Assembly (NCBI GenBank): GCA_019751915.1
Contig: JAIEMS010000022.1
Span: 1 to 64,000, forward strand
Source: Burkholderiaceae bacterium
GTDB lineage: Bacteria; Pseudomonadota; Gammaproteobacteria; Burkholderiales; Burkholderiaceae_C
Length of the DNA stretch: 64,000 bases
Reading direction: 5' to 3'
Below, in pieces: positions 9,170 through 28,954 of the stretch (positions are counted from its first letter, which is position 1; every line of letters begins with the position of its first letter). The notes below the pieces were generated by a model. That model saw nothing but the letters and a program-made list of their open reading frames with translations, was not told the origin of the DNA and did not search any database. A program made the translations under genes and the position numbers.

Positions 9170-11212
9170 CTACCCGGCGCGGCGCTGCTGGGCCAAGCGT
9201 TGCACCACAGCAGTCAGACGGTCGATTTCCTCGAAAGTGTTGTAGAACGCCAGCGAAGGGCGCACCGTGGTTTCTACCCCCATACGGCGCAAAATGGGTT
9301 GGGCGCAGTGGTGGCCGGTGCGCACGGCAATGCCTTCTTCGTTGAGTGCTTCGCCGACCTCGGCGGTGGTGTAGCCCGCCAGCACAAACGACATCACACT
9401 GGCCTTGTCCGCGGCTGTACCAATCAAGCGCACACCGCGAATATCGCCCAGCGCCTTCATGCCGTAGCACAGCAGATCGTGCTCATAGCGCGCGATGTTT
9501 TCAATGCCGACGCGGTTCACGTAGTCAATGGCCGCACCCAAACCCACAGCGTCCGCGATGTTGCCAGTGCCTGCCTCAAACTTGTTCGGAATGGGCTGAA
9601 ACACCGTCTTCTCGAAGGTGACATCGGCAATCATGTTGCCACCGCCTTGCCACGGCAGCATATCTTCGAGCACTTCGCGCTTGCCCCAGACGACACCAAT
9701 GCCGGTCGGCCCGAACACTTTGTGCCCCGAGAACACAAAAAAGTCCGCGCCAATGGCCTGCACATCCACCCGCATGTGCGAAATCGACTGCGCCCCATCC
9801 ACCAGCACCTTGGCACCTGCGCGGTGCGCCAACTCAACGATCTGCTGAACCGGCACCACGGTGCCCAACGCATTCGACACCTGCGTCACCGAGACCAACT
9901 TGGTGCGGCTGTTGAGCAGTTTTTGGTACTCATCGAGCAGCACTTGGCCCGAATCATCGACCGGAATGACCCGCAACTTGGCACCTTTGGCGGCGGCAAG
10001 CTGCTGCCAAGGCACGATGTTGGCATGGTGCTCTAAATTCGAGACGATGATCTCGTCGCCCTCACCAATGTGCTGCCAGCCCCAACTTTTGGCGACCAAA
10101 TTGATCGCCTCGGTAGTGCCGCGCACAAAGATCACCTCGTCGACATCCGGCGCGTTGATGAAGCGGCGCACACGCTCTCGGGCACCTTCGTAGGCATCGG
10201 TAGCGCGGGCTGCCAATTCATGGGCGGCACGGTGGATGTTGGAGTTCTCGTGGGCGTAGAAGTAGGCGATTCGGTCGATAACCGATTGCGGCTTGTGCGT
10301 AGTGGCAGCGTTGTCGAGCCAAGCCAAAGGCCGGCCATTGACGCGCTCTTGCAGCACCGGAAAATCACGCCGCACGGCATGCACATCAAACACGGGGTGC
10401 GCGCTGCGGCCCGCCTGCGGCACCGCACCTGCCTGTGCGGGATGGGCGGGCGTGGTGTAACCACCGGGCAGCACCACGGCATCGACGAAGTAAAACTTCG
10501 GCTGCGCCGAAGGCACAGTCGAGGGCACAGTCGAGGGCACAGTCGAGGGCACACCAGCGCCAGCAGTCGGCGTTGTGACACTGGGCACCTCAGGCTGAGC
10601 AAATGGCAAACGCGAAAGCGCACCCAGCGCATCTGGCGACGCAGGCAAAGCCCCCGTGCTGCGTCCACCCAGCGCGGGATGGCTGTGCTGATCGCTCACA
10701 AAGTAAAACGGCGATGCTGCTGCCGACGCATCAGCCGCCGCAGGCACACCCAGCACATCGCTACCAAAGCGTGGCTCGTAGGCGGGCAAAGTGCTGACCA
10801 GTCTATCGGGCACCCCATTGCCAGCGGGCGCATGGGGCAGCAGTGCCGGAGCACGGTGTGCCAGCGATGCCAGCGGCGTGGGCGATGCAGGCACCAGATT
10901 GCCACCGGGCACCACACCCTGCGGAAACGGCGTACCGGGCACATTGGGGCCAAAACCAGCCGGACTGGCCAGCGGCGAACCCGCCGGTGCGATGTTTACC
11001 GGAGCCTGCACACCGGGCGGCACCGAAAAAGCTTGTCCCACGCCGGGCGCAGTCGCTGGCAGCGTAGAAGGCAAATCGCCCGCAAAATCAGGCTGTTGAC
11101 CCGGCAGGGCTGAAAAAAAGGCTGTCGCCATGCGCGCCAGCAGTGCCGGATCCATAGGAACCTCAGGGGCGTGCGGCACGCCCACAGGGGGAGATGCAAG
11201 AGTAGTCACCAC
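9170..11212 (-). CDS. Encapsulin-targeted cysteine desulfurase (Family 2A cargo)
   Basis: A 680-residue fusion of a disordered targeting segment and a SufS-type PLP cysteine desulfurase, which removes sulfur from cysteine to give alanine and an enzyme persulfide. The catalytic part starts near residue 275 (FDVHAVRRDFPVL); the PLP lysine is about K498 in SGHKVFGPTG and the persulfide cysteine about C636 in RTGHHCAQP. Residues 1-270 are rich in Pro, Ala, Gly and Ser with short ordered-looking motifs: LLARMATAFFSALP (24-37) and FYFV twice (169-172, 240-243). Known Family 2A cargo uses such an N-terminus to enter the shell. The start is GTG, 9 bp after the encapsulin stop; Met20 is a possible alternative. 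A 12-bp tandem repeat encodes STVP repeats near residue 225. Confidence 0.93.
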   Translation of the reverse strand: MVTTLASPPVGVPHAPEVPMDPALLARMATAFFSALPGQQPDFAGDLPSTLPATAPGVGQAFSVPPGVQAPVNIAPAGSPLASPAGFGPNVPGTPFPQGVVPGGNLVPASPTPLASLAHRAPALLPHAPAGNGVPDRLVSTLPAYEPRFGSDVLGVPAAADASAAASPFYFVSDQHSHPALGGRSTGALPASPDALGALSRLPFAQPEVPSVTTPTAGAGVPSTVPSTVPSTVPSAQPKFYFVDAVVLPGGYTTPAHPAQAGAVPQAGRSAHPVFDVHAVRRDFPVLQERVNGRPLAWLDNAATTHKPQSVIDRIAYFYAHENSNIHRAAHELAARATDAYEGARERVRRFINAPDVDEVIFVRGTTEAINLVAKSWGWQHIGEGDEIIVSNLEHHANIVPWQQLAAAKGAKLRVIPVDDSGQVLLDEYQKLLNSRTKLVSVTQVSNALGTVVPVQQIVELAHRAGAKVLVDGAQSISHMRVDVQAIGADFFVFSGHKVFGPTGIGVVWGKREVLEDMLPWQGGGNMIADVTFEKTVFQPIPNKFEAGTGNIADAVGLGAAIDYVNRVGIENIARYEHDLLCYGMKALGDIRGVRLIGTAADKASVMSFVLAGYTTAEVGEALNEEGIAVRTGHHCAQPILRRMGVETTVRPSLAFYNTFEEIDRLTAVVQRLAQQRRAG
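10509..10552 (-). repeat. 12-bp tandem repeat in the cargo linker
   Basis: The unit GAGGGCACAGTC (plus strand) occurs about three and a half times in tandem and encodes the STVP/PSTV repeats around residues 222-234 of the desulfurase. Such repeats can change copy number and hence linker length. Confidence 0.8.
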
Positions 11213-11221
11213 GCGATCACT

Positions 11222-12157
11222 TTATTTGTAGGTATCAGGGTAGTCGTGGTACTTGTTGATCTCCACATCGTCCAGCACCGCCAGTGCATCGGGTGTCAAC
11301 ACCGCTAGCGAGCAATACAGCGAGATCAGGTACGACGCAATCGCATGGTTGTTGATGCCCATAAAGCGCACCGACAGGCCCGGACTTTGTTCACCGGGCA
11401 GACCCGGCTGGTACAAACCGACCACGCCTTGGCGTTTATCACCCACACGCAGCAGCAAAATTTTGCTCTTGCCATCGGCCACGGGCACTTTGTCCGAAGG
11501 AATCAACGGAACACCGCGCCACGTAATGAACTGCGAACCAAACAGGCTCACGGTGGGCGGCGGTGTGCCACGGCGGGTGGCTTCGCGGCCAAAGGCAGCA
11601 ATCGCCAGCGGGTGGGCCAAGAAGAAAGCGGGCTCTTTCCAGACCTTGGTTAAAAGCTCATCCAAGTCGTCGGGCGTGGGCGCACCAGTGAGCGGAAAAA
11701 TACGCTGTTCATCCGTCACTTGGGCCAGCAAACCATACTCGGGGTTGTTGATGAGTTCGCTTTCTTGGTTTTCTTTGATGGTTTCGATGGTCAGGCGCAG
11801 TTGCTCCTTGACCTGATCGTGTGGGCTGCTATAGAGGTCAGAGATGCGCGTGTGCACGTCCAACACGGTGCTGACACCATTGAGGAAAAACTCGCGTGGA
11901 TGCTCTTCGTACTCGACAAAGGTGCGCGGCAACTGCTTGTTGTCTTTTTCTTTGGCAGTGCAAACGACCTTGATGTCCTCAGGATTTTTCACCCGATTGA
12001 GGCGGTAAATACCGGCCTCGACCGGTGTCCATTGCAGCAGGTGCGTCAGCCAGCGCGGCGTGATGGTCGAGAGCTGTGGTGCCGTTTTGGTCGCGTTGGC
12101 TAATTGCCGTGCGGCGTTATCGCCGAGTGCGGTGGTACCGCCTACTGTTGCCGACAT
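11222..12157 (-). CDS. Family 2A encapsulin shell protein (SrpI-like)
   Basis: A 311-residue HK97-fold shell protein of the SrpI/Family 2A class, which assembles into a hollow protein compartment. Recognisable segments are the N-terminal arm (NATKTAPQLSTITPRWLTHLLQW), the VNRVKNPED-like YRLNRVKNPED, FVEYEEHPREFFLNGVSTVLDVHTRI, and the C-terminal stretch ending in VEINKYHDYPDTYK. Length and motifs match Family 2A and not the shorter Family 1 encapsulins. GGAG lies upstream of ATG 12157. The cargo desulfurase follows immediately. An XRE regulator, serine acetyltransferase and rhodanese precede it in the same direction. Confidence 0.95.
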   Translation of the reverse strand: MSATVGGTTALGDNAARQLANATKTAPQLSTITPRWLTHLLQWTPVEAGIYRLNRVKNPEDIKVVCTAKEKDNKQLPRTFVEYEEHPREFFLNGVSTVLDVHTRISDLYSSPHDQVKEQLRLTIETIKENQESELINNPEYGLLAQVTDEQRIFPLTGAPTPDDLDELLTKVWKEPAFFLAHPLAIAAFGREATRRGTPPPTVSLFGSQFITWRGVPLIPSDKVPVADGKSKILLLRVGDKRQGVVGLYQPGLPGEQSPGLSVRFMGINNHAIASYLISLYCSLAVLTPDALAVLDDVEINKYHDYPDTYK

Positions 12158-12242
12158 ATCGAAACTCCGTGTTCAAAAATCGAAAAAACAAAAAACCAGT
12201 TCAGGAAAAACCAAACGAGTGTCAAAGTTTGCAGGCCGCACT

Positions 12243-12512
12243 TCAACAGGCTATAGCCGCCAACTGCAAGCCCCGCACCAGATTGGCTTGGCTCAGAACC
12301 TCACCACGCATCACCAGCGTCGAGGGGGTGATGCCCAACGAACGTGCCAGTTTTTCGATGGTTTGCAGCGAAGCAATAGCGTCGCCGCGCTCGACCTCGC
12401 CGACATACGAACGGTTCAGGTCGGAATACTCGGCCAGCCGCTCTTGTGACCAGCCGTAGGCCTCGCGCGACTGGCGCACCGCCACGCCAAAACTTTTGAT
12501 GAGCGTGGTCAT
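12243..12512 (-). CDS. XRE family small transcriptional regulator
   Basis: An 89-residue protein that is essentially one helix-turn-helix domain (GVAVRQSREAYGWSQERLAE, then LNRSYVGEVERGDAIASLQT, then IEKLARSLGI). The ATG at 12512 overlaps the stop of the serine acetyltransferase gene (ATGA), so translation is coupled; the longer ORF to 13004 is only frame read-through over that gene. It lies 85 bp upstream of the encapsulin start. Its likely role is local control of the operon. A perfect 6-6-6 palindrome at 14025-14042 in the operon's promoter region is a candidate operator. Confidence 0.88.
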   Translation of the reverse strand: MTTLIKSFGVAVRQSREAYGWSQERLAEYSDLNRSYVGEVERGDAIASLQTIEKLARSLGITPSTLVMRGEVLSQANLVRGLQLAAIAC

Positions 12513-13447
12513 AGGCAGTCCTTTTGCACCGCTGCGGACGGCTGGTGCGGTAGGCCCTCGCGCGATATGGCCTGCGTGACATGGCCCCCCGGCGGTACAT
12601 CGTGCGTGACCCATACATTGCCGCCAATCACCGCCCCCTGACCGAGCGTGACGCGGCCCAAAATCGTGGCCCCGGCGTAGATCACCACGTCGTCCTGCAC
12701 CACGGGGTGGCGCAGCAGACTTTTTTGCGGGTAGCCGTTTTCGTCGGCCGGAAAGCTCTTGGCACCCAGCGTCACCGCTTGGTACAGACGCACCCGCTGG
12801 CCGATCACCGCTGTTTCGCCAATCACCACGCCCGTACCGTGGTCGATAAAAAAGCCCGCGCCAATTTGTGCACCGGGGTGAATGTCGATCCCCGTTTGGC
12901 TGTGTGCCAACTCGGCCACAATGCGCGCCAGCAGCACCAGCCCCAGTTGGTACAGGCGGTGCGCCAACCGGTGGTGAATCATTGCCAGCACACCGGGGTA
13001 GCACAGCAACACTTCATCCACACCGCGCGCGGCTGGGTCGCCTTGGTAGGCTGCCAACACATCGGTATCGAGCAAGCGGCGAATCTGCGGCAGCGACTGG
13101 GCAAACGCACGGGTAGCGGCCAGCGCATCGGTCTGAATATTGCCGCCTTCACCGCCGGTATGGCGGCGGCTGTAGCGCAACTCCAGCGCCACCTGCCCCA
13201 GCAGGGCATGCAATGCAGCATCCAGCTGGTGGGCGACAAAAAAATCTTCGCTCTCTTGGCGCAGGTCATACGGGCCTAAGCGCATCGGAAACAGCGCGGC
13301 CTTGAGTTGCTCAACGACTTGCTCTAATGCCTCGCGCGAGGGAAACTCGCGCCCACCCGGCTCCTGTGAACGGTTTTGGGATTCGCGCCACTCGCGGCGC
13401 ACGGCATGCAATGACTCGGTGATGTCGGCAATATCAAAAGTAGACAT
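12509..13447 (-). CDS. epsC: Serine O-acetyltransferase, EpsC type
   Basis: A 312-residue enzyme that acetylates serine to O-acetylserine, the carbon skeleton for cysteine synthesis. An alpha-helical N-terminal half is followed by left-handed beta-helix hexapeptide repeats from about residue 185 (GIDIHPGAQIGAGFFIDHGTG and VVIGETAVIGQRVRLYQAVT), with the catalytic histidine in DHGTG. The long N-terminus fits the EpsC form rather than CysE. It follows the rhodanese gene by 15 bp. A product that feeds cysteine synthase next to a cysteine-consuming desulfurase suggests a closed sulfur loop, but no cysteine synthase gene is in the window. Confidence 0.93.
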   Translation of the reverse strand: MSTFDIADITESLHAVRREWRESQNRSQEPGGREFPSREALEQVVEQLKAALFPMRLGPYDLRQESEDFFVAHQLDAALHALLGQVALELRYSRRHTGGEGGNIQTDALAATRAFAQSLPQIRRLLDTDVLAAYQGDPAARGVDEVLLCYPGVLAMIHHRLAHRLYQLGLVLLARIVAELAHSQTGIDIHPGAQIGAGFFIDHGTGVVIGETAVIGQRVRLYQAVTLGAKSFPADENGYPQKSLLRHPVVQDDVVIYAGATILGRVTLGQGAVIGGNVWVTHDVPPGGHVTQAISREGLPHQPSAAVQKDCL

Positions 13448-13462
13448 AGGCTGGCCCCGGCT

Positions 13463-13942
13463 TCAGTCTTGCACCCACGGCAGTCCGTGGTAGCGCCAGC
13501 CGTCGTCCTTGCCGCGCTGCTGCGCAGCGTCGATTTCGCCCTCAAAGCCTTCCAAAACATTAAAGACATGGACAAACCCAGCAGCGGCAGCAGCCTCGGC
13601 GGCCAACACCGAACGCTTGCCACTGCGGCACAGCAGCAGCGCCACGGCCTCCTTGCCGCCGTTGCTGCCCAGCTTGGACTCTAGTTCGCGCACGAAGCGT
13701 GGATTGCGTGTCAGCGCGGTGCCCGTGGCCCAAGCCACATGCACACTGCCCGGAACATGACCGACAAACTTGCGCTCCTCGGCGGTGCGCACATCCACCA
13801 GCACCGCCTGCTCTGCCTGCACCAGCGCCCAAGCGATGGTGGGATGAACTCCACCGGCATACAACAAGCCCTGTGCAACGGCCTGTGCATGTGCCTGCTC
13901 CAATGCAGCGGGAAGGGTGATTTCTGCAGTGTCAGAACCCAT
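13463..13942 (-). CDS. Rhodanese-like sulfurtransferase
   Basis: A single-domain rhodanese of 159 residues. The active loop CRSGKRS holds the persulfide cysteine, and DVRTAEERKFVGHVPGSVHVAW and VFNVLEGFEGEID are family landmarks. The C-terminus KDDGWRYHGLPWVQD is also typical of single-domain rhodaneses. No signal peptide is visible, so it acts in the cytosol. AGGAG lies before ATG 13942. As first gene of the encapsulin operon it may carry sulfane sulfur from the encapsulated desulfurase; that partnership is inferred from position. Confidence 0.92.
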   Translation of the reverse strand: MGSDTAEITLPAALEQAHAQAVAQGLLYAGGVHPTIAWALVQAEQAVLVDVRTAEERKFVGHVPGSVHVAWATGTALTRNPRFVRELESKLGSNGGKEAVALLLCRSGKRSVLAAEAAAAAGFVHVFNVLEGFEGEIDAAQQRGKDDGWRYHGLPWVQD

Positions 13943-14024
13943 GAAAAACGTCTCCTAGCAAACGGTTGGTGTCGATAGGCATCGAATTTACGGGCAAACA
14001 AATCGCCAGTAAACGAATAAAAAC

Positions 14025-28644: not shown

Positions 28645-28954
28645 ATTCCGCTGACCTCCGCTTTCCTTTAGAAAGCATTAGCTGGTTTAAGAAACCTTCC
28701 GCGGCACGGCTGAACCGGTTGGCGGATGCGACTGTGGCTGGGGAAGGGCCTGATTACGGGCGTAATTGTGCCACCGAAAATCCCTCTGCGCGAAGCCCAA
28801 GGAATCGTTTCGATCAGGGTAAACATGGATTTCACGGAACTACAGCCCACAAGACACGGGCTTTTGAATATGCATTACGCTCAATGCCAACTCTGTACGG
28901 GTATGATGGAGGGCTTGGTCAGTAGGCGCAAAAGTGCGCTCACTGACTGCAAAT
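28645..28954. other. Divergent intergenic region, sucA to tRNA-Arg
   Basis: No ORF is convincing. Near the sucA start there is a good ribosome binding site. On the plus strand TATGAT at 28902-28907 followed by GGAGGGCTTGG resembles the -10 and discriminator of the promoters at the left edge and may start the tRNA transcript, though no clear -35 is seen. Confidence 0.5.

Follow-up and report, generated by a model that had tools for sequence, protein, structure and literature searches.

We examined a 64,000-nucleotide stretch of a Burkholderiaceae bacterium (assembly GCA_019751915.1, contig JAIEMS010000022.1, positions 1 to 64,000), hereafter the window, which carries on its minus strand a five-gene operon for a rhodanese-like sulfurtransferase, an EpsC-type serine O-acetyltransferase, a small helix-turn-helix (HTH) regulator of the XRE type, a Family 2A encapsulin shell and a cargo cysteine desulfurase. 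It appears likely from sequence comparison that this operon has a switch of its own, in which XRE would act at two dyad sites, O1 and O2, on an upstream promoter, P1, and an internal promoter, P2. Through the conserved control sites in xre the operon is probably divided into two transcription units, a division overlooked by an earlier sequence-only reading of this DNA. The gene content of the compartment was already known; the XRE with its two predicted sites and the putative internal promoter appear to be new. If true, the internal switch would add a kind of control new to Family 2A compartments, and would extend to a metabolic compartment the controller-protein design known from restriction-modification. 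The regulator-operator pair, conserved in at least 21 genera, offers a directly testable handle on the expression of shell and cargo separately from that of rhodanese and EpsC.

The five genes that the sequence-only reading had named between 9170 and 13942 were confirmed in position, direction (all on the minus strand) and identity, the last by curated models. The rhodanese-like protein (13463..13942) matched PF00581 (2.7e-13) and contains CRSGKRS at residue 105, and EpsC (12509..13447) scored 164.3 bits against NF041874 (cut-off 150) and 169.6 bits against the general cysE model TIGR01172, below that model's cut-off of 210.65. The XRE regulator (12243..12512, read from its ATG; 89 amino acids, HTH only) matched HTH_3 at 9.5e-14. 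The SrpI-like shell (11222..12157) reached 525 bits against NF041162 (cut-off 380) and 9.4e-102 against PF19307, and the desulfurase (9170..11212), which matched PF00266 and bears an N-terminal tail of about 270 residues rich in P/A/G/S/T, reached 928.7 bits against NF041166 (cut-off 800). Shell and cargo thus both exceed curated Family 2A cut-offs, and by these matches the compartment is almost certainly an ordinary member of the known Family 2A encapsulins. From rhodanese to desulfurase the gaps measure 15, -4, 85 and 9 bases, the -4 being the ATGA overlap of epsC and xre, in agreement with the tight spacing (at most 85 bp, one ATGA overlap) described before.

We compared this locus with the best 80 of at least 580 confirmed relatives from a genome scan, in which genes were scored by tblastn. 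All five genes were present in 68 of the 80, so that the operon arrangement is not due to chance, and xre lay directly upstream of the shell gene in 74 of them, from 21 named genera. The other 12 comprised six without xre, one (L069) without epsC, and five that lacked one or two end genes at an apparent contig end. The closest named relatives among these 80 belonged to Giesbergeria, with shells 97-98% identical, and the source of the window is probably a close member of Comamonadaceae. In a gene-distance correlation, desulfurase values were set aside as unreliable, the alignments being fragmentary.

The conserved site O2 (putative XRE operator TTGGCGGCTATAGCCTGTTGA, 12243..12263, minus strand) takes in the xre stop codon and the codons just before it, and for most loci, as for the window, the putative operator is part of the regulator's own coding sequence. 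This site, TTGRYGGCTATAGCMTGTTGA, is a 21-mer present in every one of the 75 loci with xre (74 relatives and the window itself), with 15-21 of its 21 bases as in the window; when one locus was taken per named genus (21 genera for O2, 20 for O1), every one of the 21 genera retained it at 16-21 of 21, together with the A2/T6 hexamer described below. Its central ATA occurred in 75/75 loci and the preceding T in 68, and its core is GGCT/AGCC (the published C-box core being GACT/AGTC). Symmetry peaked at the CTATAG centre, with a score of 0.447.

Where coding, O2 reads LAAIAC-stop or a variant, and we could align 63-64 of the 75 loci there for a codon comparison. The Ile codon within it was the rare ATA in 61/61 cases, against 110 of 5231 Ile codons (2.1%) in the other genes of the operon, the Leu codon was TTG in 59/61, and the Ala codon was GCT in 56/60. 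Since these unusual codons were kept, and since the O2 DNA was still present in loci where the xre frame ends elsewhere, the constraint acts on the DNA. Mean pairwise identity between loci was 0.889 for O2, 0.562 for third codon positions of xre and 0.324 for the 15 spacer bases downstream; one reversed locus (L114) was left out of this comparison and of the following one, in which nine further loci without xre gave best 21-mer matches of only 11-14 of 21 and two further loci with xre gave 20 and 18. Five of the six relatives without xre had 4-5 mismatches to a 13-mer of O2.

The same association was seen in a family-level sample of 200 genomes, in which we sought the exact 16-mer core GGCTATAGCMTGTTGA regardless of encapsulins. 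It occurred in 15 genomes, once in each; 14 of these sites preceded a shell gene and had the same orientation, at a distance of 241-292 bases from the profile match, and the fifteenth was inside an unrelated reading frame. As the PF19307 shell was present in 40 of the 200 genomes (in one, G071, weakly), the core was found in 14/40 shell genomes versus 1/160 others (Fisher p 2.6e-10), a test not wholly independent of the relatives from which the pattern was derived. The reversed control pattern had no match in the 200 genomes. In a class-level sample, 6 of 229 genomes carried the shell. The core GGYGGCTATAGCC occurred exactly once in the window's own genome; a duplicate shell there was considered and rejected, as there was a single PF19307 match. 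In one sampled genome (G003, contig C1, about 1338677-1339398) the shell match consisted of two overlapping pieces, suggesting a frameshifted gene, and the O2 core upstream of it was intact.

The right edge of O2 is a -35-like TTGA, and a -10-like hexamer follows it at fixed spacing, forming the putative shell-cargo promoter P2 (TTGAAG-17-GACACT, 12218..12246, minus strand). Each locus was read at a spacing of 17 or 18, whichever gave the hexamer more similar to GACACT, and the hexamer lay 17 bases past the TTGA hexamer in 57 loci and 18 bases past it in 18. A2 and T6, the two key bases of the sigma-70 -10 element, were present in 75/75 loci, and at spacing pairs avoiding 17 and 18 they were found in at most 14. 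The exact hexamer GACACT was present in 48/75 loci, with a mean of 0.065 and a maximum of 1 in shuffles. Transcription from P2 would start near 12211, as estimated from the -10 position, and the CTATAG centre of O2 would sit near -42.5 (or -43.5) relative to P2, the position typical of class II activators, for example lambda CI. For published controller (C) proteins, PMC5282649 describes activation from sites upstream of -35, and the weak hexamers of P2 would fit a promoter that needs an activator. We think it quite likely, from these conserved features, that O2/P2 is a real regulated promoter. The relative without an epsC homolog in its operon, Herminiimonas contaminans (L069), has nonetheless retained O2 and P2.

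A second putative XRE operator, O1 (TCGATGCCTATCGACACCAA, 13966..13985, minus strand), lies upstream of the rhodanese gene and matches a degenerate dyad, TTGRYGGCTATMGCCRYCAA, at 17 of 20 bases. This dyad was found at 15/20 or better upstream of rhodanese in 54 of 73 loci (two of the 75 had no usable stretch there and were left out), compared with 1.1% of shuffles and 0/72 control stretches upstream of the cargo gene. By genus it was present in 12/20. Abutting O1 in the window is TAAATT (13985..13990, minus strand), the -10-like element of putative P1, and TAnnnT abutted O1 in 39 of the 54 loci (shuffles: mean 6.9, maximum 15). A protein at O1 would block polymerase, the position of a repressor. 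Upstream of the P1 -10 lies a T-rich box, GTTTTTATTCGTTTACTGG (14006..14024, minus strand), and for its first 14 bases the genome has no second copy, even with 1 mismatch allowed. One relative, Duganella sp. 1411 (L036), has neither xre nor O2, yet it carries an O1-like dyad (18/20).

The protein predicted to act at these sites resembles C proteins. No domain besides the HTH was found in the 89 residues of XRE, and its closest solved relatives were C.AhdI and C.BclI, both in a single-sequence search (4.4e-10 and 3.3e-9) and with a profile of 20 orthologs (2.3e-17 and 5.5e-16); the top PADLOC match was the Control_protein model (6.4e-16). Residues L32 N33 R34, Y36, G38 E39 and E41 R42 were invariant in the 20 orthologs, and C.AhdI shares the stretch RSYVG.VERG. 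XRE is by these comparisons a small HTH-only protein with C-protein-like sequence and, like C.AhdI, C.BclI, C.Esp1396I and C.Kpn2I, it is associated with a putative dyad operator, mostly with central TATA. Unlike those proteins, it is encoded in an encapsulin operon, and its dyad core is GGCTATAGCC rather than the published one. C proteins act by position near -35, as stated in portions of PMC4041747 and PMC5282649. Because xre lies just upstream of the shell gene and no restriction or methyltransferase enzymes were detected among the nine neighbouring window proteins scanned (no wider search for such genes was made), we class XRE only as working like a controller protein. Relocation of xre was considered for the relatives that lack it and was rejected: in four of these six genomes the best matches were at most 43% identical, with no clear ortholog.

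In the model that we favour, the SrpI-like shell would package the SufS-type desulfurase via its long N-terminal tail, EpsC would feed cysteine synthesis, and rhodanese would accept sulfane sulfur outside, as in published members. XRE is predicted to bind both dyads. At O1, across the P1 start, it would repress rhodanese, EpsC and XRE; at O2, about -42.5, it would activate the weak internal promoter P2 that would drive shell and cargo. Only when XRE has accumulated would the compartment be made, later than and apart from expression of the sulfur-metabolism genes. Gene identities, synteny and conserved DNA sites with fixed spacing were observed directly, and from there on XRE binding, the activity of P1 and P2, the sign of control and its timing are inferred. 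More tentatively, it is possible that a restriction-modification-type controller was recruited to time a protein organelle, with O1 shutting off the sulfur genes and O2, at its class II position, starting a delayed, self-limiting second wave.

Several observations weigh against this model. The assignment of an activator to P2 and a repressor to P1 is read from position, and we hold it with somewhat less than even confidence. A generic promoter scan called neither P1 nor P2, the O2 dyad is imperfect (an alternative centre scores 0.412), and its TGTTGA side may be conserved as a -35 alone. Exact GGCTATAGCMTGTTGA is missing in 26 of the 40 shell genomes, and the related loci that supplied the O2 consensus are also those in which it was counted, with shuffles that leave shared ancestry in. 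Although L078 lacks xre, a site resembling O2, with 2 mismatches to the 13-mer, precedes its shell gene, and one of the six relatives without xre matches the dyad upstream of the shell at 16/20. O1 was not found in 19/73 loci and 8/20 genera, is degenerate in the window, and has its threshold reached also by 6/73 stretches upstream of epsC; moreover, three of the six relatives without xre keep an O1-like site (L036 at 18/20, two at 15), which argues against a simple one-to-one match between xre and site.

The alternative that survives best, which we nevertheless regard as unlikely, is a plain Family 2A operon transcribed from P1 as a single unit, in which XRE would be a simple autorepressor and the conserved end of xre would reflect protein or inherited sequence without a promoter. 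The short gaps, of at most 85 bases, and the ATGA overlap would suit a single transcript, the P2 hexamers are far from consensus and were missed by the promoter scan, and the loci are related by descent. However, this explanation does not account for the ATA codon in 61/61, for the persistence of O2 where the xre frame ends elsewhere, or for the fixed 17/18 spacing to the A2/T6 hexamer in 75/75 loci, across a spacer only 32% identical. It is rather improbable, secondly, that XRE bound at O2 forms a roadblock that stops elongating polymerase at the end of xre and so limits shell and cargo instead of activating them. C.Kpn2I is reported in PMC6237814 to stall polymerase from a site within its own gene, and in most loci, including the window, O2 is part of the xre coding sequence, but a roadblock would leave unexplained both the invariant A2/T6 hexamer 17/18 bases downstream and the centring of the operator near -42.

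The weakest alternative, an attenuator in which conserved GACACT would be a hairpin loop between xre and the shell gene and not a -10 element, is very improbable: the mean stem score of 10.9, which does tell beside or against P2, exceeded all 200 arm-swap controls (mean 9.2, maximum 10.1), and certain loci of Variovorax and Delftia have strong stems, in part with T runs behind them, but a score of at least 15 was reached in only 15/75 loci (the window has 5 pairs and a score of 12) while A2/T6 was kept in 75/75. GACACT as a general hairpin loop was thus rejected, the signal being real but confined to a minority. In the xre-shell gap of Variovorax loci such as L058, L051, L062 and L048 we noted a strong hairpin with GACACT in its loop, arms that have changed and yet still pair, and T-rich stretches after it; this hairpin may be a terminator escaped by P2 transcripts.

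We compared the window with its closest known Family 2A systems. The shell of Synechococcus elongatus PCC 7942 (pANL; SrpI/CyD) is 73.4% identical over 95% of the query, and passages of PMC8049743 describe there a packaged desulfurase with N-terminal motifs, adjoining EpsC and rhodanese genes, and induction of SrpI by sulfate starvation. In contrast to the window, the order in that species is cysK-epsC-srpI-cyd-rhodanese, with no XRE homolog found in the stretch and no O2-like site above chance. The Acinetobacter baumannii Family 2A shell is 82.8% identical over 97%, with rhodanese and EpsC homologs upstream, but its locus (L119) likewise lacks both an XRE homolog and an above-chance O2 match. 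By tblastn, XRE homologs were absent from the stretches from Synechococcus, Methylosinus, Azospirillum, Aliarcobacter and Acinetobacter; the Azospirillum stretch does contain a gene annotated as XRE, which is of another kind and lies in divergent orientation.

The sequence-only reading had offered a tie of rhodanese and EpsC to the compartment as an inference. Their operon membership is published, so the tie now stands beyond that: in the available text of PMC8346489, a large-scale encapsulin survey counts 1281 Family 2A desulfurase operons, and the most enriched accessories are serine acetyltransferase and rhodanese. The words XRE, helix-turn-helix, HTH, promoter and operator do not occur in the main text of that paper (the supplementary figures, which include a list of accessory genes, lay outside this search). 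In the literature searched on encapsulin regulation, to the extent of its available text, we found no description of a regulator with two sites and an internal promoter in a Family 2A operon, and no dedicated regulator was named for these encapsulins.

The NF041162 match covers shell residues 11-306, across the full profile. The Family 2B model NF041163 also exceeded its cut-off (415.7 bits; cut-off 400), a point beside or against a Family 2A assignment; its score is lower than that of the 2A model, and its best stretch spans only profile positions 211-449 of 450, without the 2B N-terminal half. By these matches the shell is predicted to be of the SrpI type, with the HK97 fold and without the cyclic nucleotide (cNMP)-binding domain of Family 2B. 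Its best PDB match was 8t6r (1.8e-170), which we take to be the A. baumannii encapsulin, and that of the catalytic part of the cargo was 8kg1 (1.2e-191). Sulfur-storage work on the A. baumannii encapsulin (Sci. Adv. 2024, adk9345) is cited in the consulted portion of PMC12407261.

As to the disordered tail that had been proposed for the desulfurase, its composition would fit disorder (residues 1-270 are 60% P/A/G/S/T and 7% charged, with no Cys and no Trp). The tail contains motif-like stretches, LARMATAFFS at residue 25 and FYFV at residues 169 and 240; the N-terminal cargo motifs given in excerpts of PMC8049743 are LARLANEFFS and AASPYYFLDG. A loose form of motif 2 was present in 77/78 loci, and the strict form of motif 1 in only 7/78, with variants such as LARMANALF in relatives, which stands beside or against our reading. 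The cargo retains SGHK from residue 495 and HHC from residue 634, both presumably catalytic. A start at the ATG of residue 20 was not preferred, as the close relatives L002-L004 conserve residues upstream and have Ile or another residue there instead. A tandem 12-base repeat encoding VPST was seen by eye at about 10552-10507 (minus strand) of the tail.

EpsC as the sole serine acetyltransferase was rejected, since a separate CysE scored above cut-off on contig C20 of the same genome; with this second, canonical CysE, EpsC is not the only source of O-acetylserine. Downstream of the operon, on the same strand, are a serine hydrolase (8989-8429), which we take to be RBBP9-like, and then the sulfate-transport genes sbp, cysT and cysW. 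Sbp or cysT with neighbours lay in the flank of 7 of the 80 relatives (flanks extended to at most 7 kb and were in part truncated); the linkage thus recurs but is not general. The genome has just two copies of the 17-mer TATTCTTTTGAGTTTTA, even with 2 mismatches allowed: one (9057-9041, minus strand) precedes the hydrolase gene and the other (8195-8179, minus strand) precedes sbp, and similar boxes recur upstream of both genes in some relatives; it is possibly the site of a sulfur-limitation activator. A sulfur-starvation box common to P1 and TATTCTTTTGAGTTTTA was rejected, as the P1 box shares only TATTCKTTT, and CysB as their common regulator stays a guess of ours. No known RNA was found in the operon at Rfam gathering scores; elsewhere in the window there were only a tRNA and a sucA RNA motif, the latter at 28649-28731 (minus strand) with 84.7 bits (gathering score 40).

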